A stretch of 10,571 nucleotides of DNA, taken from contig CAIYYW010000040.1 of assembly GCA_903930515.1 (NCBI GenBank), positions 1 to 10,571 of the forward strand, written 5' to 3'. Of this stretch, positions 1-10,571 are shown in pieces (positions within the stretch are counted from its first letter, which is position 1; every line of letters starts with the position of its first letter). The notes below the pieces were generated by a model. That model made no database searches, had not been told where the DNA came from, and was given only the letters and a program-made list of their open reading frames with translations. Origin of the DNA: an uncultured delta proteobacterium (GTDB taxonomy: Bacteria; RBG-13-61-14; DRUE01). A program made the translations under genes and the position numbers.

Positions 1-86
1 CCATTCTTGATAAACAGAACAGTGGGGATGTTACGAATGCCGTATTTAGAAGCAATTTCGGGATTACTATCCACATCCACCTTGCC
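1..86 (-). other. Thioredoxin C-terminal fragment fused in frame to pilQ (probable chimeric join)
   Basis: On the minus strand, positions 86 to 1 read GKVDVD followed by SNPEIASKYGIRNIPTVLF and IKNG. This is the thioredoxin segment that contains the conserved cis-proline (IPT) and the following beta strand; E. coli TrxA has KYGIRGIPTLLLFKNG at the same place. A secretin N domain would be expected to continue after GKVDVD with something like a DxRTNTLIV segment. The CxxC active site would lie upstream in a thioredoxin gene and is absent here. Codon choice also shifts: AGT, GCT, TCT, CGT, ACT and GTT cluster in this short piece, whereas the rest of pilQ favours C/G-ending codons. The two genes could share the bases for GKVDVD (69-86), which would explain the in-frame join. 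An assembly or amplification chimera is the likeliest cause; a natural recombination is possible. Confidence 0.85.
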
Positions 87-1967
87 CCGTTCGGACAAAA
101 CATTCTTCACCTGCGAGGAGAGATCCTGGCCGCGGGCGTAATTGATCGGGATGATCCTGGTTTGCAGGGGCCTGAGTTTTTCGCGGTTCTGGATCGCTTT
201 GACCAGGTCTTCCTGCGATCTCTCGATATCCTTGTTGGGGGCGATCCGGATGACATTTCCGTACTGGACCATCCCCAAGTCTTTGGCTTCCAGGATTAAA
301 TCCAAGGCCTGATCCCAGGGAACATTCTCGAGCTTTAAGGTGATCTTTCCGCCCACATTATCCGCGGTCACGATATTGAGGTCGCTCACCGCGGCAATGG
401 CGCGGAGTGCGTCCAGGATGTCCAGGTTCTTGGCTTCAATCGTGATCGGGGTTCCGGTATAAATCTTGGTCCCGGTCAGGGTTTCCACTTTGACCGTCTG
501 GCTGCCCTTGCTCACGGCCGGGCCCGCCTGTGGAGTCGGCACGGTCTCAGGCGATGGCGCGGAAATTTCTTCCCCGCCGGAGGGGATCGGGCCGATCGCG
601 ACGACTCCGGGGTTGGGGAAGCTGACCGATAATATATTTCCATTCTGCTTGAGCTCGGGCGCCACCCAGGAATTGAGATTGACCACGATATTCACTTCGC
701 TGAGGTTGGCCTGCAGGGAACTCACCCATTTCACCGGGCTCTGAAACTCCCTGGTATCAAGGGAACGCTCCAGTTGGGAAGGAATGGAGGCGTCCTTGAG
801 AATGACGGAGAAAATCAGGTCATTGAGATTCTCGCGTTTTTCGTAGCTCCCCGGCTGGTCGGTTTTGATTTCCACCACCGAGGCGGCCGGAGAATACTTG
901 AAGTCCACGGCCAGCACTTTGATCTTACCGGCGCCCGGAAGCGGGCCTGCGGTTTGCTCGCCCGGGGTGGGAGCCGAGCCTGAAATTTCTTCAGGCGCGG
1001 CCGCAACCGCCGCGGTCGGTTCCGGAACCGACGCGGCCAACGCCGGGGCGTTTGGACCGGAGACATCGGTGGACATACTGACGGTCAGGATCAGCCGCTC
1101 CTCTTCCCGGCTGAGATGATATGAAGGGAATTTGGCCTCGGAAGAGTCAAAAACCAGCCTGAGCTTATCCGGATGCTGTCCGATCCGGACCTGCTTGATG
1201 CCCTGGCTGTTGATGGCCAGTTGTTTTCCCGGGTATAAAGATTTTACCTTCCAGAGATCCACCACCAGCCGGGCGGGATTGTTCATCTGGAACGCGTTAT
1301 AATCAGGAGGATTGCCATCCATCACCAGCATAATTTGGGTCTGATCCGATTCATCGGAAAGGGCGATGTCCAACAATTTGGCCGCGACTTTTCCGGCCGG
1401 GATTTCGGCGATGGTGGATCCGGCTTGGGCCATCGCCGGAGGAGGCTGAACCGCGGGTTCGTCCGAGGCCGGCTCCGCGTTTTTTTCCACAATCACCTTT
1501 CCGCCTTCGCCTCCGTAGAGGTCCTGGTTGGAGGGGGCCGCGGCATCAACCGGCTTAAGGCTGACAAAAAGCTTATTATTTTCCCGGGTGACTTCATAGG
1601 CCATCATCTTGTCCAGGCCGATCTCGACCCGGACAATGGATGCGGCTTTTTCCTCGCTGGCCTTGACCAGGTTGATGACGCCGTTATTGACCGTAACCTT
1701 GGCCGGCACACCCAGCTTAATTTTAAGGTCGGCCAGGTCCACCATAATCCGGATCGGCTCCAAGGGCCGGTAAATACTGTAAGTGGCCGGGTAGGTGGTG
1801 GTGATCACCACTTGCGGCAACTGATTGACCTGGGTGACCTCCACCTTCTCCAACTGGTTGACTTCGGGCTTGCCCTTGGCGCCGATGGCAAAGGCCAACG
1901 CCAGCGCGATCAGAGCTACTCCGATCCTGCTTTGCGCCTTTCCGCTTTCCACTTTAGAACTAGCCAT
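1..1967 (-). CDS. pilQ: Type IV pilus secretin PilQ, N-terminal part, running off the window
   Basis: Outer-membrane secretin that forms the pore through which the type IV pilus passes. The ATG at 1967 follows a strong AAGGAGG 8 bases upstream. The reading frame is open to the window edge (655 codons). Residues 1-30 are a signal peptide with a hydrophobic core (about 15-28). Three AMIN-like beta domains, which bind peptidoglycan in known PilQ proteins, can be read at about 45-135, 195-290 and 346-450, separated by Pro/Ala/Glu-rich linkers. An STN domain follows at about 505-575 (from TPITIEAKNLDILDALRAIA) and a secretin N domain begins near 600. The secretin beta-barrel is not in the window. 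From about residue 634 the sequence no longer resembles PilQ but matches thioredoxin, so the true PilQ sequence probably ends near position 69. It is the last visible gene of the pilMNOPQ cluster, 61 bases after pilP. Identity as PilQ is secure from domain order and neighbours; the last 23 residues should not be trusted. Confidence 0.9.
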   Translation of the reverse strand, partial: MASSKVESGKAQSRIGVALIALALAFAIGAKGKPEVNQLEKVEVTQVNQLPQVVITTTYPATYSIYRPLEPIRIMVDLADLKIKLGVPAKVTVNNGVINLVKASEEKAASIVRVEIGLDKMMAYEVTRENNKLFVSLKPVDAAAPSNQDLYGGEGGKVIVEKNAEPASDEPAVQPPPAMAQAGSTIAEIPAGKVAAKLLDIALSDESDQTQIMLVMDGNPPDYNAFQMNNPARLVVDLWKVKSLYPGKQLAINSQGIKQVRIGQHPDKLRLVFDSSEAKFPSYHLSREEERLILTVSMSTDVSGPNAPALAASVPEPTAAVAAAPEEISGSAPTPGEQTAGPLPGAGKIKVLAVDFKYSPAASVVEIKTDQPGSYEKRENLNDLIFSVILKDASIPSQLERSLDTREFQSPVKWVSSLQANLSEVNIVVNLNSWVAPELKQNGNILSVSFPNPGVVAIGPIPSGGEEISAPSPETVPTPQAGPAVSKGSQTVKVETLTGTKIYTGTPITIEAKNLDILDALRAIAAVSDLNIVTADNVGGKITLKLENVPWDQALDLILEAKDLGMVQYGNVIRIAPNKDIERSQEDLVKAIQNREKLRPLQTRIIPINYARGQDLSSQVKNVLSERGKVDVDSNPEIASKYGIRNIPTVLFIKN

Positions 1968-2028: not shown

Positions 2029-2580
2029 CTACTTTTTCTTAATCCCTGATGCCGCGCCTTCCCCCTCCATCTTTAGAAACTTGTCCACGATCCGGATCTT
2101 GCTGGAATCCCTCGGATCCAAAAATTGTTCTTCCACCACGATCCCTCCCGCTTTGATTTCCTTGACAATACCCTTGTTGGCGCCCAGGGTATCTCCAATC
2201 GAGATGAAAAATTCCTGGTTGCCGGGGGTAATGATGTGGGCGATATTCTTCCCGTCCGGCCCGACAATAATCCCGTCAATCCATAACTGTTCCAAATAAT
2301 ACCTGGTCTTGGGATTCGGCGGCTCCATGGGAAGCGGGACCTTGAATGGGTCCTTCTTCCCGGTCGGGTCGTAGCTCCAGGCCAGTTTGGATTCCTTCCC
2401 CTCCAACTCTTCCTCGCTGGGAGGAGGCGCCACCGTTTCCTTCTTCTGGGTGGTGGGCGTGGTGCTGATTTGTCCTCCGCCGCAGGCGGCCAGGAAGAAC
2501 AGGGCCAGGATTAACCCGGCTGCGGAAACCAACCCGGCAATTTTTATTTTCTGAACTCTCATCATAACCTCTCTTTTCAT
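2029..2580 (-). CDS. pilP: Type IV pilus assembly lipoprotein PilP
   Basis: Periplasmic lipoprotein that links the PilN/PilO inner-membrane dimer to the secretin PilQ. The 183-residue reading has a lipoprotein signal peptide ending in the lipobox LAAC, after which Gly-Gly-Gly begins the mature protein. A flexible Thr/Pro/Glu-rich linker (about 40-65) follows. The C-terminal beta domain carries the family pattern: a W/YDPxGKKDPF segment, then IDGIIVGPDGKNIAHIITPG, then a GDTLGANKG segment and a strand VVEEQFL. Length is normal for PilP. The start is ambiguous. The ATG at 2580 has a GGGGGG run upstream, whereas the ATG codons at 2565 and 2562 have GAGAGG 2 to 5 bases ahead; 2562 gives a more typical n-region (MRVQKIK). 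The gene begins 11 bases after the pilO stop, consistent with one operon. Confidence 0.92.
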   Translation of the reverse strand: MKREVMMRVQKIKIAGLVSAAGLILALFFLAACGGGQISTTPTTQKKETVAPPPSEEELEGKESKLAWSYDPTGKKDPFKVPLPMEPPNPKTRYYLEQLWIDGIIVGPDGKNIAHIITPGNQEFFISIGDTLGANKGIVKEIKAGGIVVEEQFLDPRDSSKIRIVDKFLKMEGEGAASGIKKK

Positions 2581-2591
2581 TTGCCCCCCTG

Positions 2592-3227
2592 TTATTTCTC
2601 CTCGGTCGGCAGCTTGACGGCGGGTTTGGCCTTCTTCGTCGTCTCCGGTGCCTCTTCCGCGGGCTCCTTGAACCGGTAAGCATTGAGGGTGAAGCTAATA
2701 TCCAGGTTGCCGAGCTTATCCGCTTTGAGGCCCAGGTTGGTGACATTGACGATCCGCTCCAGGCGGGCCAGCTCGTCGAGGAAAATCATCGACTGGAAAA
2801 AGCCGGCCTTCATCTTGATATCCACCGGCACTTCCACATAGAGAGACTTGGGCGCCTCCGACTTTTTCTCAAAGGTCCGGATGTCAATATTATTGTCTTT
2901 CGCCCGCGCCGTCACTTCCTTGAGCAGGGCGTCCATCTGAGATTTGCCCGGCAGCTTGGTCTTCGCCTTTTCCAACTTCTTATTGAGCAGCGCGTTCTGG
3001 CGCTCAAACTTGGGCAGATCACGCTCCACGGTTTTGAGGTCGGCGGTCTGCTTGTCCAGCTTGGCGATGCTATCCTTAAGCCCGCTGATCTGGTTCTGAT
3101 ATTTCCGGTCCAGGGTGGTGAAATAAAGAATGATTATGATCAAAGCCCCCAGCCCCAGGATCAACGCCTTCTTGAACCAAGGAAGCTTGATCAACCGCTC
3201 TGCTTTCAGATAATCCCCGAGTGCCAT
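2592..3227 (-). CDS. pilO: Type IV pilus inner-membrane protein PilO
   Basis: Bitopic inner-membrane protein that pairs with PilN to form the periplasmic part of the pilus alignment complex. It has 211 residues, normal for PilO. A short cytoplasmic N-terminus is followed by one transmembrane helix (about 21-39, ALILGLGALIIIILYFTTL), a long charged coiled coil (about 41-92), and a ferredoxin-like periplasmic domain (about 95-190). That domain includes the typical YVEVPVDIKMKAGF strand and the following FLDELARLERIVNV helix. The C-terminal 20 residues are a Lys/Glu/Pro-rich tail, probably disordered. The ATG at 3227 has AAGGAGG whose first A's belong to the pilN stop codon (TAA), so translation of pilO is likely coupled to pilN. 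Only 11 bases separate the two genes. Confidence 0.95.
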   Translation of the reverse strand: MALGDYLKAERLIKLPWFKKALILGLGALIIIILYFTTLDRKYQNQISGLKDSIAKLDKQTADLKTVERDLPKFERQNALLNKKLEKAKTKLPGKSQMDALLKEVTARAKDNNIDIRTFEKKSEAPKSLYVEVPVDIKMKAGFFQSMIFLDELARLERIVNVTNLGLKADKLGNLDISFTLNAYRFKEPAEEAPETTKKAKPAVKLPTEEK

Positions 3228-3238
3228 CCTCTCCCTCC

Positions 3239-3841
3239 TTAGCCGGCCTCTGCCGCTGCCGCGGGAGGCTTGTTCACCGTGATACTCATCTCGTAAGAAT
3301 AAAATTCCCCCAGGTCCGCTTTATTCCCCTTGGCGATCTTCTTGAGCGTAACCGACCCGAAATATCCGGTCCGGTTTTCCAGGTTGGAAATCAAATTGCC
3401 GATCTGATCCTTTTCCCACGCCCCCCCCTTGATCTCCCAGGAGCCGCTGTAAATACCGCCTCCGGTCTTGCTCCCTTTCGGCGTATTCAGGGTATCGACC
3501 CAGACCCCTTCCGGGGTTGCATCGCTGATCTGGTCAAGGATCTGCAGATACCAGTCCCGCCCGGTTTCCAGGCTGGTGATCACCGAAATCTGCTGCTGAA
3601 GATTATCGTTGGCCTTCCGGAACTGCTCCACCTTCTTCTTGGTCGCTTCCAGCCGGGCCAGCTCCACGGTCGTCTGCGAGATCTCCCCGTTCAGGCGCGA
3701 AATGGTCCGGGTCCGCAGGATCGCCAGATATCCCACCCCGACAATCACCACCAAAAAGACAATGCCCGCGGCGATTACCTGGTTCTGCGCCGTCGCCCGC
3801 TTTTTGGCTTCTTTGACCGCTAACAGGTTTATCTTGATCAT
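3239..3841 (-). CDS. pilN: Type IV pilus inner-membrane protein PilN
   Basis: Bitopic inner-membrane protein whose cytoplasmic N-terminal tail binds PilM and whose periplasmic domain dimerises with PilO. It has 200 residues. The tail begins MIKINLLAVKE, matching the PilM-binding INLLP motif except that the usual Pro is Ala at residue 8. One transmembrane helix spans about 22-42, then a coiled coil (about 43-92), then the PilN alpha/beta domain with the ISDATPEGVWVDTL segment. The C-terminus is Ala-rich. The ATG overlaps the pilM stop by one base (TGATG), with AGGAGG 11 bases upstream inside the end of pilM, so translation of the two genes is probably coupled. Confidence 0.95.
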   Translation of the reverse strand: MIKINLLAVKEAKKRATAQNQVIAAGIVFLVVIVGVGYLAILRTRTISRLNGEISQTTVELARLEATKKKVEQFRKANDNLQQQISVITSLETGRDWYLQILDQISDATPEGVWVDTLNTPKGSKTGGGIYSGSWEIKGGAWEKDQIGNLISNLENRTGYFGSVTLKKIAKGNKADLGEFYSYEMSITVNKPPAAAAEAG

Positions 3842-4911
3842 CAGTCGCCTGCCCTCCTTAAGGCCAATCCGACGGCAATCGCGGCCTGAGGCCCGATTTC
3901 CTCCAGATAGGCCGGATCAAAATGCTTGGGATTACGTTCCACATTCCGGAACGGGTCCAAAATCTCCACCGGCAGGTTCTGGTTCTTGCCCACGCTCTCG
4001 GCCAGACCCGAAATCCGGCAACTCCCGCCGCAGAGCCAGATCTTATTGATATGGGCGTCCGCAGGAGCCGCCGCAGAATAGAAGTCCAAGCTCCGAGCCA
4101 CTTCACTCGCGATCTGCTCGCTCACCTCCCGGATCACCATATCCACTTCCTTCCGCATCACTTCCTCGGTGTCCTTCTTGCCCGAGCCTCCCTTTTTCAG
4201 CAACTCCGCGTCCTCGTAGCCCACGCTCAATTGCTTCTGGATTTCCTCGGTGAACAGGTTTCCCCCCATCGAGATGTCCCGGCTGAAGGTGTAATTACCC
4301 CCCCGAACCACCACGATGTTGATCAGGCTCGCCCCCACATTGACCAGGGCGATCACCTCGTTCTCCATCACCGGGTAATTGATCTCATACATATTCTGGA
4401 GCGCGAAGGCGTCCACATCCACCACCACCGGGGACAGGCCCGACTCGGTCAGCACCGAACTGTAATCGTTGATGATCTCCTTCTTCGCCGCCACCAGCAG
4501 GACTTCCATATTCCCCTCCGCGTCTCCCGGGTTGAGAATCTGGAAATCCAGGTTCACATCCGTGATCTCGAACGGGATATACTGGGCGGCCTCCCATTGA
4601 ATCTGCTCCTCCAACTGCTCCGCGGTCATCGCCGGCATAGTGATTTTCCTGATCATCACCGACTGTCCGCTCACCGAGGTCACCACTTCCTTGGTCTTGA
4701 TCTTGCGCTCGGCCAGCAGGGTCCGGATGGTATCCACCACCGCGCTGGTGTTCATAATCGCGCCGTCCACGATCACTTCCGGAGCGATGGGCGCGATCCC
4801 GAAACTGGCCAGTTGATAGCCCTTTTTGGTCTCTTTAAGCTCCGCCACCTTGATCGCGCTGGACCCGATATCCAACCCGATCGCCGGTTTTCTCCCACCG
4901 AAAATGCCCAT
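3841..4911 (-). CDS. pilM: Type IV pilus assembly ATPase-like protein PilM (actin/FtsA fold)
   Basis: Cytoplasmic actin-like protein that binds nucleotide and the N-terminal tail of PilN, and connects the pilus motor to the alignment complex. It has 356 residues, normal for PilM. The phosphate-1 motif is IGLDIGSSAIKVAEL (11-25), phosphate-2 is VNVGAS (190-195), and the adenosine motif is LCGGSCRISGL (293-303). The inserted 1C subdomain contains the family signature WEAAQYIPFEI (106-116). The ATG at 4911 has AGGAG about 8 bases upstream. The stop overlaps the pilN start (TGATG). Eighty-six bases separate it from the upstream helix-turn-helix gene. That gap has no clear promoter but contains two short frames that chain into the pilM start. 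Confidence 0.96.
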   Translation of the reverse strand: MGIFGGRKPAIGLDIGSSAIKVAELKETKKGYQLASFGIAPIAPEVIVDGAIMNTSAVVDTIRTLLAERKIKTKEVVTSVSGQSVMIRKITMPAMTAEQLEEQIQWEAAQYIPFEITDVNLDFQILNPGDAEGNMEVLLVAAKKEIINDYSSVLTESGLSPVVVDVDAFALQNMYEINYPVMENEVIALVNVGASLINIVVVRGGNYTFSRDISMGGNLFTEEIQKQLSVGYEDAELLKKGGSGKKDTEEVMRKEVDMVIREVSEQIASEVARSLDFYSAAAPADAHINKIWLCGGSCRISGLAESVGKNQNLPVEILDPFRNVERNPKHFDPAYLEEIGPQAAIAVGLALRRAGD

Positions 4912-4997: not shown

Positions 4998-5252
4998 TCA
5001 GGATTCCAGCCGCCGGCGTTTGCCCTTACCCAACTTCCGGAATCCGCCCTCAACATCGTTCCCGAAAACCTTGTCCTTTTCCGTCAGTTTGAAACCGAGC
5101 GCGAGGATGATCTTCCGTTTGGTATCCATCCGGCAATCCATCCCTTTTTCCACCCGGTCTATAGTGAGCGCGCTGATCCCGGCTTTCCGGGCCAACTCCG
5201 CCTTGCTCGTCAGTAAGGATTCCCGAATTGCGCGAACATTATTCTTTGCCAT
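4998..5252 (-). CDS. Small XRE-type helix-turn-helix regulator ahead of the pil operon
   Basis: DNA-binding protein of 84 residues, probably a transcription factor. Residues about 13-37 form a Cro/CI-type helix-turn-helix (SKAELARKAGISALTIDRVE), followed by a helix with RMDTKRKIILALGF, as in XRE-family domains. The C-terminus is basic (GKGKRRR), which may add non-specific DNA contact. No effector domain is present. The ATG at 5252 is preceded by TAGGAACC and a second purine-rich AAGGAG further up. The gene lies directly before pilM on the same strand and directly after a strong predicted promoter, so it probably is the first gene of the pilus transcript and may control it; this is inference. 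The family call is firm, the target is not known. Confidence 0.85.
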   Translation of the reverse strand: MAKNNVRAIRESLLTSKAELARKAGISALTIDRVEKGMDCRMDTKRKIILALGFKLTEKDKVFGNDVEGGFRKLGKGKRRRLES

Positions 5253-5283
5253 TGGTTCCTACCCCGCTCCTTCGTTTTCCAAA

Positions 5284-5321
5284 CCCTTGCTCAAAAAACC
5301 CCTTGCTTAAATTCCCTTGCT
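5284..5321 (-). repeat. Three direct repeats of AGCAAGGG, candidate operator
   Basis: The octamer AGCAAGGG occurs three times in the same orientation on the minus strand at 5321-5314, 5307-5300 and 5291-5284, with start-to-start spacing of 14 and 16 bases. The array lies about 8 to 45 bases after the predicted transcription start and before the regulator start codon. That position suits an operator for repression, perhaps by the adjacent helix-turn-helix protein, or a binding site in the mRNA leader. The repeats are seen directly; the role is inferred. Confidence 0.45.
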
Positions 5322-5335
5322 TCTTTCCCGATTCT

Positions 5336-5363
5336 ATTATGCTATGTTTGCTTCATTTGTCAA
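5336..5363 (-). promoter_or_regulatory. Strong sigma70-type promoter for the regulator-pilMNOPQ transcript
   Basis: On the minus strand TTGACA (5363-5358) is a perfect -35 box, followed after 16 bases by CATAAT (5341-5336), five of six matches to the -10 consensus. Upstream of the -35, positions 5400-5364 are very A/T-rich, with AAATTATA repeated at about 10-base spacing, resembling an UP element. The predicted transcription start is near 5329, giving a leader of roughly 75 bases before the regulator gene. No other good promoter is visible between here and pilM, so this is the best candidate for driving the whole pilus cluster. Confidence 0.7.
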
Positions 5364-5401
5364 GTTATTTCTATAATTTCTTATAATTTTAGTTAATTTT
5401 G

Positions 5402-5429
5402 TTGCGATTGATCATAAAGGTTGTATAAT
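5402..5429 (+). promoter_or_regulatory. Possible plus-strand promoter
   Basis: TTGCGA (5402-5407), 16 bases, then a perfect TATAAT (5424-5429). The -35 matches four of six consensus bases. Transcription would start near 5436 and run rightward into the inverted repeat at 5438-5474 and then antisense to the lipoprotein gene. No plus-strand gene follows, so it would make a non-coding or antisense RNA, or be a chance match in AT-rich DNA. Confidence 0.3.
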
Positions 5430-5437
5430 TGCCCCGA

Positions 5438-5474
5438 CCCGACCACTAAATCTTGGGGTTGGCCCTTGGTCGGG
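5438..5474. repeat. Inverted repeat CCCGACCA ... TGGTCGGG
   Basis: Two 8-base arms (5438-5445 and 5467-5474) are perfect reverse complements separated by 21 bases. The spacer holds a small GGG-TTGG-CCC hairpin, so a branched RNA structure is possible. There is no clean U-tract on either side, so it is not a standard intrinsic terminator in either direction. It begins almost exactly where a transcript from the plus-strand TATAAT would start. Confidence 0.5.
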
Positions 5475-5497
5475 CTGATGGTAAATTTTGGACAAAT

Positions 5498-5513
5498 TGC
5501 GATAATTATCGCA
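5498..5513. promoter_or_regulatory. Perfect 16-bp palindrome, candidate operator
   Basis: TGCGATAATTATCGCA is a perfect palindrome with no spacer. The half-site TTGCGAT recurs at 5402-5408, about 95 bases away, overlapping the possible plus-strand -35 box. Perfect palindromes of this size in a promoter-bearing gap usually bind a dimeric regulator. Which regulator is unknown. Confidence 0.45.
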
Positions 5514-5519
5514 TAGTCT

Positions 5520-5582
5520 TCGATACTAAGGCCTAATACTTAATAAGGGGTGGGGGGTTGCTCCCGGGGTTGGCTGGGGCGG
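5520..5582 (-). terminator. C-rich, G-poor mRNA tail after the lipoprotein gene, possible Rho site
   Basis: The transcript of the lipoprotein gene continues past its TAG into a stretch with C-runs at 5579-5576, 5569-5566, 5557-5552 and 5550-5547, few G's, and then AT-rich sequence. C-rich, G-poor, unstructured RNA is what Rho loads on. No stem followed by a U-tract is visible, so an intrinsic terminator is not supported. The plus strand of the same stretch has five G-runs that could form a quadruplex, although one loop is 8 bases. Confidence 0.3.
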
Positions 5583-6521
5583 CTAAGGGGTATTTTCCGG
5601 CGGGGTCTCCCGGGACTGGATCTGGAGGGAGCTTTCCAGATCATTGACTCCTCCGTGATTATCGCTGGCGCGGACCTTTAACTGGACTTCACCCGAGAAA
5701 TCCTTGGGCACGGTCCACCTGACCATTCCGGCCGATGCCTCGAGCCGGGCGCCGGGCGGCCCCTGGACCATCTGGTAGGATATGGGATCTCCGTCCGGAT
5801 CGGTGGCGCGGAACTGGAAGAAAAGGTTATTACCTTCGAGCCAGGTTCTTCCCTGTTCGTTGAACTCGGGGAAGCGGTTCAGGATTTTGACCGGGGGAGA
5901 GGACTGCCAGTTCAGCGGGTCGGTCGGGTCGGTGGTATTGGTGGATATTTCCGCGATCACCCGGTCCCCGACATTTAAGCCCGCTTCCGGCCCGCTCAGG
6001 GCGGACTGGTCCTGCTCTTCCAGAATTTTGCCGTTAACCTTCCAGCGGTAATTAAACCGGGAGGGGTCGCAATTCCCGCAATTCACTTTGGCCTCCAAGG
6101 TCTGGTCCAGGACCGGGTCGGCGGGGGAGATTTCCACGCCGTTGATACTGGGTTCTGACTCGGCGATCCGGGCTTTCTCCGAGCTGATCCACTCTGTTTC
6201 CTGGACGCCGTTACTGCCTCGGATTTCCACATAGACCTCGGCTCCCGGGATAAGCAGGTTTTTTTCCAGGAGATTGTCCTTGCCCTCCTTGACCATCTTC
6301 CCGTTGAGATACCAGCGGTAAGTAAAGTCGACCTTGGCGCCCTTGGGGGTGTTGAAATCCACCACCGCCTGAAGATCCATATAGGCCCGGGGATCGCCCG
6401 GGGACAGGCGGACCGCGTAAATCCGTACGAAACCGGTTTCGACCTGCTTGGGCTTGCCCTTGCATCCGAAAAGCAAGGCCGGAACCAAAAGCAATGGGAT
6501 AATCCGGAAGAACTTTTTCAT
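5583..6521 (-). CDS. Lipoprotein with tandem Ig-like repeats and a cadherin-like C-terminal domain
   Basis: Predicted envelope lipoprotein of 312 residues; I do not recognise a named family. The signal peptide ends in LLFGC with the lipidated Cys at 20. Two divergent repeats of about 85-90 residues follow (about 37-119 and 129-213). Each begins with an SPxDP segment, has a central YRWxxNGK (68-75 and 158-165) and ends in a W-x-S-S segment, suggesting an internal duplication of an Ig-like beta sandwich. The second repeat has a CGNC pair (148-151). A third domain (about 217-303) has ATDPDGDPISY and a closing VRASDNHGGV strand, the pattern of putative Ig/cadherin-like domains that can bind calcium. 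The start has AAGGAGG overlapping the stop of the upstream transporter gene, 10 bases away, so it belongs to the same operon. It may bind polysaccharide or other surface partners; this is a guess from fold only. Confidence 0.8.
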   Translation of the reverse strand: MKKFFRIIPLLLVPALLFGCKGKPKQVETGFVRIYAVRLSPGDPRAYMDLQAVVDFNTPKGAKVDFTYRWYLNGKMVKEGKDNLLEKNLLIPGAEVYVEIRGSNGVQETEWISSEKARIAESEPSINGVEISPADPVLDQTLEAKVNCGNCDPSRFNYRWKVNGKILEEQDQSALSGPEAGLNVGDRVIAEISTNTTDPTDPLNWQSSPPVKILNRFPEFNEQGRTWLEGNNLFFQFRATDPDGDPISYQMVQGPPGARLEASAGMVRWTVPKDFSGEVQLKVRASDNHGGVNDLESSLQIQSRETPPENTP

Positions 6522-6531
6522 CTCGTCCTCC

Positions 6532-7929
6532 TTACCTCTGGAAAGGATATTTTTTCCAGTAATAAAATGTGGCGGCCACCAGCACCAGACCGGCCGCGGG
6601 TCCGTTCAACAAAATTCCCCAGGGCCGGGCTCCGGTATTTCCGAAAATCTTCATCAGGAAGGGCGCGATCAGGAAAGAAAACGCCCAGGCCATTTTGGTG
6701 ATCAACCCCTCGGCGCCCATATACATGGATTCGCGGCGGAAGCCGGTGAGCTTTTCGTCATGGTCAATGACATCCGAGATCATGGGCCGCTGCAGGACCA
6801 GCACCGATGCCACCGGGGGCGCGACCAGGAAATATAGGATAAAGCCGAAGATTTTGGGATTCAGTCCCGGGATCAGTTTCACCAGCGGGAACAGGGAGCT
6901 GAAAATGCCGAACCAGATCATGGAGACCGCAAAGGTGTCTTTCTTTCCGAATTTGCCGGCGGCCCAGCCGGTGAGCGGGAAAAAGGCCGCGGCGACCAGG
7001 AGCAGGATCACCAGCAACAGTCCGGCGGTCCCTTCGCTCACTCCCATCACCGCTTTGCCGAAGAAAGGGGTAACAATAATCAGCATATTGGAACTCAGGA
7101 TGAAGGCGGCGATAATCACGATATAAGGAATAAACGGGGGATTCTTGAACACCTCCGCCACCGCCTGGACGATCCCGAACGGGACTTCTTTCTTGGCGTC
7201 GTGCGGGGTTTCCTTGATCCGGGCCGTCATAATATAATAGATCACCGCGGTGATGATCGCCCCGACCACGGCCATCACCTTATATCCGTCCACCGGAATC
7301 TTGGAAAGATTCACCGGATGCGCATTGAAATAATCAATGGCCTGCCCGGCCACGCCCACGGCGATGATCCTGGCGATCACCTCTCCATACCCCATCAGCT
7401 CGCTGACCTTGATCCGTTCCTTGATAAAGGGGGTGATCTCGGGCAAAAGCGACAGATAGGGATTGACCACCACCGGATACACAAACCCGAAGGCCATCAG
7501 GTAAAACCCGATCACAATGGTATTGGTCCAACTGATGCCCGGGGTGGGCGGGAACCAGACCAGCACCAAAAACAGGATCAGGAAGGGGGTGCCGAAAATG
7601 ATGAATGGACGGCGCCTGCCCCATCTGCTCCTGGTCCGGTCGCTCCACCAACCCACGGTCGGGTCGCCGATGGCGTTGCAGACATAGCGCAGGAAATTGA
7701 TCACCCCGGCCGCGAGCAGAGAAACATAACCGTTCCGGGATTCGGACGGCGACAGGAAATAAAGAATCCAGGTGTCAATCAAGGCGATGGTGAGCGCGGC
7801 CGGGAGGTTTCCGGATCCGTAAATAATTTTCTCCCCGGTGGAGAGCGCGTTTCCCTCCAGGCGGGATTCCTGTTCCGGGGTCAGATCCCCGGGCAATTTT
7901 GATTTACCGTGTCCTTCTCCCAATTCCAT
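6532..7929 (-). CDS. GPH-family (MelB-like, MFS_2) sugar:cation symporter
   Basis: Inner-membrane transporter of about 465 residues with roughly twelve hydrophobic segments. The glycoside-pentoside-hexuronide family signature is clear: DPTVGWWSDRTRSRWGRRRP (89-108) in the loop after the second helix, and in the C-terminal half ISDVIDHDEKLTGFRRESMY followed by a Gly and a Lys in the next helix. The substrate cannot be read from sequence; galT next door suggests a galactoside or related sugar. Of the MelB cation-site residues D55, N58 and D59, only the last appears kept (D89); the others align with N85 and G88. The start is uncertain. ATG at 7929 has AGGAG directly touching it, TTG at 7923 has the same AGGAG at a good 6-base distance, and TTG at 7938 lies against a T10 tract with no binding site. 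The choice affects only a hydrophilic N-terminus. Confidence 0.9.
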   Translation of the reverse strand: MELGEGHGKSKLPGDLTPEQESRLEGNALSTGEKIIYGSGNLPAALTIALIDTWILYFLSPSESRNGYVSLLAAGVINFLRYVCNAIGDPTVGWWSDRTRSRWGRRRPFIIFGTPFLILFLVLVWFPPTPGISWTNTIVIGFYLMAFGFVYPVVVNPYLSLLPEITPFIKERIKVSELMGYGEVIARIIAVGVAGQAIDYFNAHPVNLSKIPVDGYKVMAVVGAIITAVIYYIMTARIKETPHDAKKEVPFGIVQAVAEVFKNPPFIPYIVIIAAFILSSNMLIIVTPFFGKAVMGVSEGTAGLLLVILLLVAAAFFPLTGWAAGKFGKKDTFAVSMIWFGIFSSLFPLVKLIPGLNPKIFGFILYFLVAPPVASVLVLQRPMISDVIDHDEKLTGFRRESMYMGAEGLITKMAWAFSFLIAPFLMKIFGNTGARPWGILLNGPAAGLVLVAATFYYWKKYPFQR

Positions 7930-7949
7930 CTCCTGCAAAAAAAAAATTT

Positions 7950-8975
7950 TTATTGAAACTTGACCTCCCGCAATGCCGGCGCGGTCTGTTCAGGCAGTGC
8001 GGTATTGATGAAGATCCCGGACCCGATCTCAAACCCGGCCATCATCGTCAGCCGGGGGATGATCCGGAGATGCCAATGGAAATAATCCTCATCTTCCTCT
8101 TTCACCGGCGCGGTGTGGATCACGATATTATAGTCGGGATTTCCGAGCATGGTGAAGATTTTCCCGGTGATCCGCTTCAAGACCCTTCCCAGATCCTTGG
8201 CCGCGTCCAGGTCCAAGTTGCCGAAGCTGGCGGAATGAAACTTGGGCAGGACCCAGGTCTCAAACGGAGAGCGGGAGGCATACGGATGCATCACGAAAAA
8301 TTTAGCCCCGTCTTCCACCACCCGGACTCCGGCTTTTTGCTCGGCCTGGATCAGGTCGCAGTAAAGACACCCGCCGTTGTCGTCATAATACCTGGTGGCG
8401 ACCGCGGTGCGCCGGCGCAGGCTCTGCGGCACAATCGGCGTGGCCACGATCTGGCAGTGGGGATGGAGCAGCGAGGTTCCGGCCTGGTCGCCGTGATTTT
8501 TGAAAATAATCACCACCTTGACATTCGGCTCATTGCGCAAGGCCAGGTAGCGCTCCCGGAGCGCGATCACCACTTCCTCGGCCTGCTTGTCCGTAAAATA
8601 CGGGAAATAAAGATTATGCTTGGGGGTTTCAATCAAGACCTCGTGTCTGCCGATGCCGTCCATTTTTCGGAACAGGCCGTTCGCCACTTCCCGCTTGACC
8701 TCGCCCTCGCACTCGACCTGCGAGGGTTGGAGCGCCGCGAACCGGTTCGGGATCACCCGGATCCACCAGCCCGGGGAATTTGATGTTCCGCCCTCACGGT
8801 ATCCGAGCACTTCCGGAGGGGTCTGGGCCTCGTTGCCCGGGCAGAACGGGCATTTCGGCTCAAATTCGGGAGGAAGCGGCTTCAAGGGCTTGGTAAAATC
8901 GTGCGGCCGCTTGGCGCGCTCGGTCGCGATAATCACCCACTCGTTGGTGGTGATGTCCTGTCTGATCTCACTCAT
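7950..8975 (-). CDS. galT: Galactose-1-phosphate uridylyltransferase (GalT, HIT superfamily)
   Basis: Cytoplasmic Leloir-pathway enzyme that exchanges UMP between UDP-glucose and galactose 1-phosphate through a uridylyl-histidine intermediate. It has 341 residues, normal for the family. The active-site motif is HPHCQ (171-175), with H173 as the nucleophile by comparison with E. coli HPHGQ, and Q175 matching the conserved Gln. Likely zinc ligands are C42 and C45 (CPFC), H120 and H171. A second CxxC lies at 203-206 (CLYC), and the second HIT-like half has HWH (300-302) and GFEIGSGIFIN (314-324), typical of this type. The related ADP-glucose phosphorylase has a similar layout, so the exact nucleotide donor is likely but not certain. 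The ATG at 8975 is 4 bases after the sppA stop and uses GGAG inside the sppA end. Its neighbour is a sugar symporter, which fits uptake and activation of a galactose-type sugar. No galK or galE is visible. Confidence 0.9.
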   Translation of the reverse strand: MSEIRQDITTNEWVIIATERAKRPHDFTKPLKPLPPEFEPKCPFCPGNEAQTPPEVLGYREGGTSNSPGWWIRVIPNRFAALQPSQVECEGEVKREVANGLFRKMDGIGRHEVLIETPKHNLYFPYFTDKQAEEVVIALRERYLALRNEPNVKVVIIFKNHGDQAGTSLLHPHCQIVATPIVPQSLRRRTAVATRYYDDNGGCLYCDLIQAEQKAGVRVVEDGAKFFVMHPYASRSPFETWVLPKFHSASFGNLDLDAAKDLGRVLKRITGKIFTMLGNPDYNIVIHTAPVKEEDEDYFHWHLRIIPRLTMMAGFEIGSGIFINTALPEQTAPALREVKFQ

Positions 8976-8979
8976 TTTT

Positions 8980-10571
8980 TTACTCCAATTCTATCCTGTC
9001 CATTAAAGATAAAAATTCTCCCCGGTGATAGAGCCGGTTGAATTGAAGGACCATTTTCAAATCTTCTGCGTCCGGTCCGAACAATTGATTCACCATCTCC
9101 TCCCCGGCCTTTCCGAATAACAGCTTCCAGAAACTTACCGGCTTGCGCTTATAAATCAGGCTCACCCCTTTGGCGTTGAGCTTTGTTTTCACGATCTCCA
9201 CCGCCTTATCCATCCCGCCCAGCTCGTCAATCAGCCCGTTCTCCTTGGCCTGCGCCCCGGTCCAGACCCTGCCTCTTCCGATCTTGTTGATCTCGTCCTT
9301 GCTCTTCTTCCGGCCCTGGCTGACCCGGTCCAGGAACAATTGATATACGCCGTCAATCTGCTCGTTGGCCTTGGCCAGCTCCGCGTCGGTCCAGGGACGG
9401 CTGGTCTCGCCCATACCCGCGTAAGCCCCGCGGGAAATGCCGGCGGCGCCGACCTGGAGCCAGGATAGCAGGTCCTTCATCCCGATATGCGCTCCCACCA
9501 CGCCGATGCTTCCGGTCAAAGTGCCGGGCTCCGCGACAATAGCGTCCGCGCCACAGGCGATATAATATCCGCCCGACCCGGCCACATCGCTCATTGAGAC
9601 CACCAGGGGCTTCTTCTCGCGCACCTTCCGGGTAGCCCGCCAGATCAGGTCCGAGGCCAAAGCCGACCCTCCCCCGGAATCAATCCGGAAGATCACCGCC
9701 TTGATGCTATCGTCCTTGGCCGCCTCCTCCAATTCTTTCACGCTTTGCTCCGCGCTCATAACCGCACCCAGGAAAGAAGGCCCGCCCGGATCAAGATTGA
9801 CAATGTCCCCCACCCCGTAGATCACCGCGACCTTGGGACCAAGGTTGAAGCCCAGAGCCTGATCCGGCACGGTCAGGTATTCCCGCTCCTTGACCAATTC
9901 AATTCCCTTGTCCTCCCCTTTCAGGTCCCGCAAAATATCGTCCAGATATTTCACGCCGTCAATCAATCCGGTTTCTTTATATTTCTCCGGCAAAACCAAC
10001 GCCTGGTCAATAATTTTTACCAGGTCATCCTTTGACTTCTTCCGAGCCGAGCCGACCCCGGACAGATACTGATCCCACAGGCTGTTGATCAACGACTCGG
10101 CCATTTCCCGGTGCGCCGGGCTCATCTCCCGGTTGGCCAGCATATCGCCCGCGGTTTTGTATTCCTTGATCTTGATCACCTGTATGGAAAGCTTCAATTT
10201 CTGGAACAGGCCTCCCAGGAAATAATAAGAGCTGTCCAATCCGTTGATGGTCAGAAAACTGGAGGGCGCCGCATAAACCTTGGCGCAGGCGGTTGCGAGA
10301 TAGTAGCTCAGGTCGGAATCGCCCTCCATCTCCAAATAGCAGGTCGCGCTCTTGCCGCTCTTTTGGTATTCGCCGAGCGCGTCCCTTAGCTCCTGGACCT
10401 GGGCCATCCCCAGGGAATTATCCTGAATCTGGACCACCACCGCCTTGATCTTATTGTCCGCGCCGGCTTTTTTCAAGAGCATCAGCTTGTCCAAAAAGGT
10501 GATCGGAACCGGCTGAAACAATCCCCAGAAGGGGTTATAAGGAACCGCTTCCGGGATTTCTCCGCCGATCC
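8980..10571 (-). CDS. sppA: Signal peptide peptidase SppA, long form, 5' end outside the window
   Basis: Membrane-associated serine protease of family S49 that degrades cleaved signal peptides. At least 529 residues are present and the frame is open to the window edge; E. coli SppA has 618, so a short N-terminal part with the membrane anchor is missing. Two tandem S49 domains are visible. The catalytic Lys is in the first (EYKTAGD, codon 10158-10156) and the nucleophilic Ser in the second (DVAGSGGYYIACG, codon 9576-9574), the Lys/Ser dyad of the long form. The following AEPGTLTGSIGVVGAHIG segment is strongly conserved. Near the C-terminus GRVWTGAQAKENGLIDELGG is the typical closing motif. A TTG at 10521 is not the start, since the protein-like reading continues upstream (for example IPEAVPYNPFWGLF). 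It is the first visible gene of the operon with galT. Confidence 0.95.
   Translation of the reverse strand, partial: IGGEIPEAVPYNPFWGLFQPVPITFLDKLMLLKKAGADNKIKAVVVQIQDNSLGMAQVQELRDALGEYQKSGKSATCYLEMEGDSDLSYYLATACAKVYAAPSSFLTINGLDSSYYFLGGLFQKLKLSIQVIKIKEYKTAGDMLANREMSPAHREMAESLINSLWDQYLSGVGSARKKSKDDLVKIIDQALVLPEKYKETGLIDGVKYLDDILRDLKGEDKGIELVKEREYLTVPDQALGFNLGPKVAVIYGVGDIVNLDPGGPSFLGAVMSAEQSVKELEEAAKDDSIKAVIFRIDSGGGSALASDLIWRATRKVREKKPLVVSMSDVAGSGGYYIACGADAIVAEPGTLTGSIGVVGAHIGMKDLLSWLQVGAAGISRGAYAGMGETSRPWTDAELAKANEQIDGVYQLFLDRVSQGRKKSKDEINKIGRGRVWTGAQAKENGLIDELGGMDKAVEIVKTKLNAKGVSLIYKRKPVSFWKLLFGKAGEEMVNQLFGPDAEDLKMVLQFNRLYHRGEFLSLMDRIELE

Follow-up and report, generated by a model that had tools for sequence, protein, structure and literature searches.

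Known systems and comparison with the locus

The closest described systems for the locus are the PilQ secretins of type IV pili (PDB 3jc8, 9x0w, 6ve2 and 4av2), the thioredoxins (TrxA) of Bacteroidota (e.g., genomes G943, G788 and G834) and the chimeric contigs found in metagenome assemblies. Metagenome assemblers are known to fail in this way, forming chimeric contigs through shared k-mers (PMC7299287).

The stretch of DNA analysed here (the window) is the entire contig C40, 10571 bases in length, of the metagenome-assembled genome G000 (3.65 Mb, 401 contigs, 93.5% complete, 2.4% contaminated). A minus-strand frame (3..1967) of 655 open codons exits the window at the contig end. Up to residue 633, its product resembles type IV pilus PilQ proteins in having AMIN domains, an N0/STN domain and the start of N1, and the gene is encoded after pilM-N-O-P. 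It is unlike these proteins in that N1 stops at GKVDVD and the contig end cuts off the conserved RTN motif and the secretin barrel. From GKVDVD onwards, the frame resembles Bacteroidota TrxA, with which it shares the pattern GKVDVDSNPE.A.KYGIRNIPT.LFIKN, whereas only 22-28 internal residues are present and the N-terminal half, the CxxC motif and the C-terminus of TrxA are missing. As in the described chimeric contigs (PMC7299287), DNA of two organisms appears to be joined via a shared short word. The frame is an artefact and not a fusion protein, and it is almost certainly a technical chimera formed at the contig end by the assembler or in the library. The coordinates of the features are given in Table 1.

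Table 1. Features of the window and the evidence on which they were assigned.
Feature	Positions	Strand	Sequence and evidence
Tail of foreign DNA, from inside a Bacteroidota-type thioredoxin gene	1..68	-	SNPEIASKYGIRNIPTVLFIKNG; cis-Pro region, without CxxC; PF00085, PDB and Bacteroidota relatives
Junction word (GKVDVD), either gene possible	69..86	-	GGCAAGGTGGATGTGGAT; trxA and PilQ comparisons
True pilQ sequence, N-terminal part, with AMIN domains, N0/STN and the start of N1/Secretin_N	87..1967	-	Pfam, PDB, PilQ of G002
pilP, pilO, pilN and pilM, upstream of pilQ (assigned by family)	2029..4911	-	Open reading frame order and sequence

The PilQ part of the frame

An earlier note, made from the letters of this DNA, had described a PilQ N domain that reads normally up to ERGKVDVD and then switches to thioredoxin. 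The first part of this description was borne out, as the frame reads ...LSERGKVDVD at window positions 69-86 with secretin matches before it. In a PDB search, PilQ structures were matched by residues 490-633 (window 69-500), with 3jc8 as the best (E=5.9e-33). Pfam detected AMIN (1.6e-28) and STN (6.7e-8) in the frame, and a Secretin_N match that is partial, weak and below the cut-off, with model positions covered to 39 of 69 only. The product carries the AMIN and STN/N0 domains and part of the Secretin_N domain of PilQ, with pilMNOP upstream. The C-terminal secretin barrel (PF00263) was not found on contig C40 or elsewhere in the G000 bin, where the sole PF00263 piece lies on contig C391; the short contigs of G000, below about 3 kb (e.g., C6, C18 and C20), were all N in the searched copy, and small contigs with trxA or pilQ could be hidden among them. 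The lack of a barrel is attributed to truncation at the contig end.

The piece on C391, where the C-terminal end of a secretin lies next to an ATPase, was considered as the missing half of pilQ and rejected, because it belongs to an operon of gspD-E-F-G and later gsp genes and the PilQ of G002 has no match there; it is assigned to GspD. The last part of gspD lies at the contig end (C391, L055; 9578-9997) and is followed by gspE, gspF, gspG and more gsp genes. The two secretins of G000, PilQ and GspD, are thus both broken by contig ends, and neither barrel was assembled.

The only same-order genome found, G002, encodes a PilQ of 969 aa with 48% identity to the frame over residues 24-635. At the junction this protein reads SPRGKAEVDRRTNSIIIRDI and then continues as a full secretin. 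In its locus (L009), pilO-, pilP- and pilQ-like frames occur in the same order as in the window. Like the PilQ of G002, five more distant secretins contain D-x-R-T-N at the junction (VDxRTNxIII-like) and also continue as secretins, and the alignments of relatives mostly end near residue 635. The thioredoxin segment is absent from the PilQ of G002 and from the five distant secretins. Homologous PilQ proteins with the same segment, which the earlier note had named as a test of its reading, therefore did not appear in this set. G001 belongs to the same genus, but its pilQ is represented by the first part only, on a short contig, and was unusable as a test of the junction. Since the rest of pilQ was not found, its continuation is taken from these relatives, and the true pilQ of the organism would continue past GKVDVD as a normal secretin.

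The thioredoxin segment

The family changes in the frame at window 68/69, and the segment SNPEIASKYGIRNIPTVLFIKN at window 3-68 is the thioredoxin sequence that the earlier note had recognized after GKVDVD. Residues 628-655 correspond to positions 53-81 of 103 of Pfam Thioredoxin (PF00085), including the IPT cis-Pro. Residues 634-655, searched separately as had been proposed (with the next G and without the shared GKVDVD), match PDB thioredoxins with E=1.2e-6. As this match was obtained without GKVDVD, it is not due to chance. The segment thus has the cis-Pro loop of the family within a PF00085 match, whereas the complete fold of about 105 residues is lacking and no CxxC occurs anywhere in the 655-residue frame.

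A real truncated secretin to which recombination or gene transfer in this organism had fused a partial thioredoxin would explain why the frame is open across the junction. Such a protein would start mid-domain in both families, with Secretin_N cut at 39/69 and thioredoxin present from 53/103 without CxxC, and it was not seen in any relative compared; a real fusion is therefore highly improbable. Neither half is expected to fold or act, because Secretin_N is cut mid-fold and the thioredoxin begins after CxxC, and none of the observations calls for such a hybrid. A genuine secretin-thioredoxin hybrid in this lineage would in addition need the contig to end by coincidence inside the thioredoxin part, and hardly any weight is given to it. 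Among the titles and abstracts by which the literature was judged, no PilQ-thioredoxin fusion was found.

Codon usage also changes at the switch, as the earlier note had stated. GC3 is 0.39 in the 23 codons of the tail versus 0.78 in the 23 codons preceding GKVDVD; for pilQ it is 0.71, and the remaining window genes lie at 0.68-0.79. Only 0.2% of 3037 equal-length stretches in the window genes have a codon-usage score as low as the tail, versus 4.7% genome-wide in a cruder set of 458 long frames. Because of this genome-wide figure, the codon anomaly is supportive rather than decisive evidence for a chimera.

Origin of the tail

The tail protein was compared with 386 genomes, mostly of other families and phyla, and the best non-self match scored 39 bits. 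The best score rose to 44.6 bits in a search limited to the phylum of one top match and to 49.2 bits, with 90% protein identity, within one Bacteroidota order. The top matches are free-standing thioredoxins of that order, encoded by frames of about 106-145 codons. The same-genus TrxA (G001, C396) is 55% identical to the tail over the same 29 residues for which the Bacteroidota thioredoxins reach up to 90%. At the DNA level, the closest sequence to the tail and word is found in G788 (71/86 bases, 83%); for the tail DNA in the two Bacteroidota families searched, the best identity is 79% in one and 83% in the other. Plasmid and phage records show ≤72% identity to the tail DNA. No exact source of the tail emerged from genome or viral contigs with strict or relaxed degenerate patterns, of which the relaxed one matched the window itself.

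C-terminal sorting domains of the type IX secretion system (T9SS) are a hallmark of Bacteroidota. Five tested genomes of the clade of the tail relatives contain 66 to 150 or more of these domains per genome, and none occur in G000 or in the two genomes closest to it, G001 and G002. Bacteroides ihuae was the sole control genome that matched. Because its closest relatives lie in this T9SS-rich clade and the same-genus TrxA is much less similar, the tail looks like the trxA of an unsampled Bacteroidota species, which would have been present in the same sample.

The tail could instead be the organism's own unassembled trxA, joined to pilQ by a mis-join within one genome. A canonical trxA is present in G001 (C396), and the G000 bin, 93.5% complete, yielded no orthologue. 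The identity values given above favour Bacteroidota over the same genus, and the GC3 of the tail does not fit this origin, which is regarded as very unlikely. A second copy of the tail DNA was not found in G000, and the only other thioredoxin in G000 (C229) differs from the tail.

The junction word

The word GGCAAGGTGGATGTGGAT is 18 bases long and would extend to 20 bases, GGCAAGGTGGATGTGGAT(AG), if an AGR arginine codon follows in pilQ. Of the 18 bases, 17 are matched by two Bacteroidota trxA genes, and PilQ relatives contain GKAEVD, GTVSVD or GKVEID at the GKVDVD site. The suggestion of the earlier note that this word could have joined two unrelated genes is consistent with both comparisons. 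No particular cause has to be invoked for the open frame across the junction: both genes use the same frame in the shared word, and in-frame passage is then expected. Under a uniform model, G000 is expected to share about 660 20-base words by chance with every 100 Mb of foreign DNA. In real DNA, 22 shared 18-mers were counted in 0.24 Mb, about three times the uniform expectation. Words of 18-20 bases common to foreign DNA are therefore expected to occur many times by chance in a metagenome.

Other contig ends and the mode of joining

Overlaps were surveyed at 192 ends of 103 G000 contigs. Exact overlaps of 20, 20, 23 and 24 bases were found for four pairs of ends, and of 102 and 133 bases for two pairs. 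The overlaps of 20-24 bases suggest an assembler using words of about that length. Three further pairs overlap by 29, 93 and 107 bases, with 41, 16 and 20 (plus 6) tip bases for which the partner has no exact match. Comparable to the frayed tip of the window are those of L165 (right end), L088 (right end) and L166 (left end), with 16, 20 and 41 unmatched bases. Such tips show that the outermost tens of contig bases can be wrong. The ends of L094, L157, L192, L200 and L232 share a related repeat, with exact pairwise stretches of up to 79-87 bases; the assembly was probably broken there by a repeat or mobile element.

In the window, family and composition switch together at a shared short word at a contig end. 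The proposal of the earlier note, a mis-joined end or an amplification chimera, is supported by the homologous PilQ proteins without the segment, the nearest relatives of the tail among the free-standing thioredoxins of another phylum, the codon shift and the short-word overlaps and frayed ends elsewhere. The switch lies at the very edge of the window, as had been noted, and position 1 is the true contig end. The earlier warning against the sequence to the left is to be amended slightly: nothing lies to the left of position 1, and the foreign part is limited to the last ~68-86 bases of the contig.

The join may have been made in the library, as a sub-case of the technical chimera, by a template switch during PCR or whole-genome amplification at the shared 18-20 bases, the chimeric read then ending the contig. 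The join lies exactly at a short identical stretch and at a contig end, where one read can decide the sequence. Joins at short words and frayed ends are nevertheless seen in several other contigs of the assembly, so that a graph error is enough to explain the join, and the library origin is considered the less probable of the two. Because short-word overlaps and frayed tips occur at other G000 contig ends, the assembly graph rather than the library is favoured as the maker of the join. The half of pilQ past GKVDVD would have been left unassembled in the bin, and the 18-20-base word GGCAAGGTGGATGTGGAT(AG) would have been common by chance to pilQ and the trxA of a Bacteroidota species from the same community. 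From this word, the assembler (or a single chimeric read) may have run on into trxA for 68 bases and stopped.

Significance and remaining genes of the contig

The importance of the locus is that of a data-quality warning only, as the outermost tens of bases are unreliable in contigs of this assembly. Predicted proteins whose frames run off a contig end can gain believable domains from another phylum, and the window would be scored as a PilQ-thioredoxin fusion in a survey of domain fusions that keeps contig-edge proteins.

Outside the chimeric tip, the window holds a normal pilMNOPQ neighbourhood, on which the chimera casts no doubt. The region upstream of the pil genes (4998-10569) encodes, as judged by translations, a small helix-turn-helix protein, a putative lipoprotein with Ig-like stretches, a sugar:cation symporter-like protein, a galactose-1-phosphate uridylyltransferase-like protein and an SppA-like signal peptide peptidase, all of which appear ordinary.
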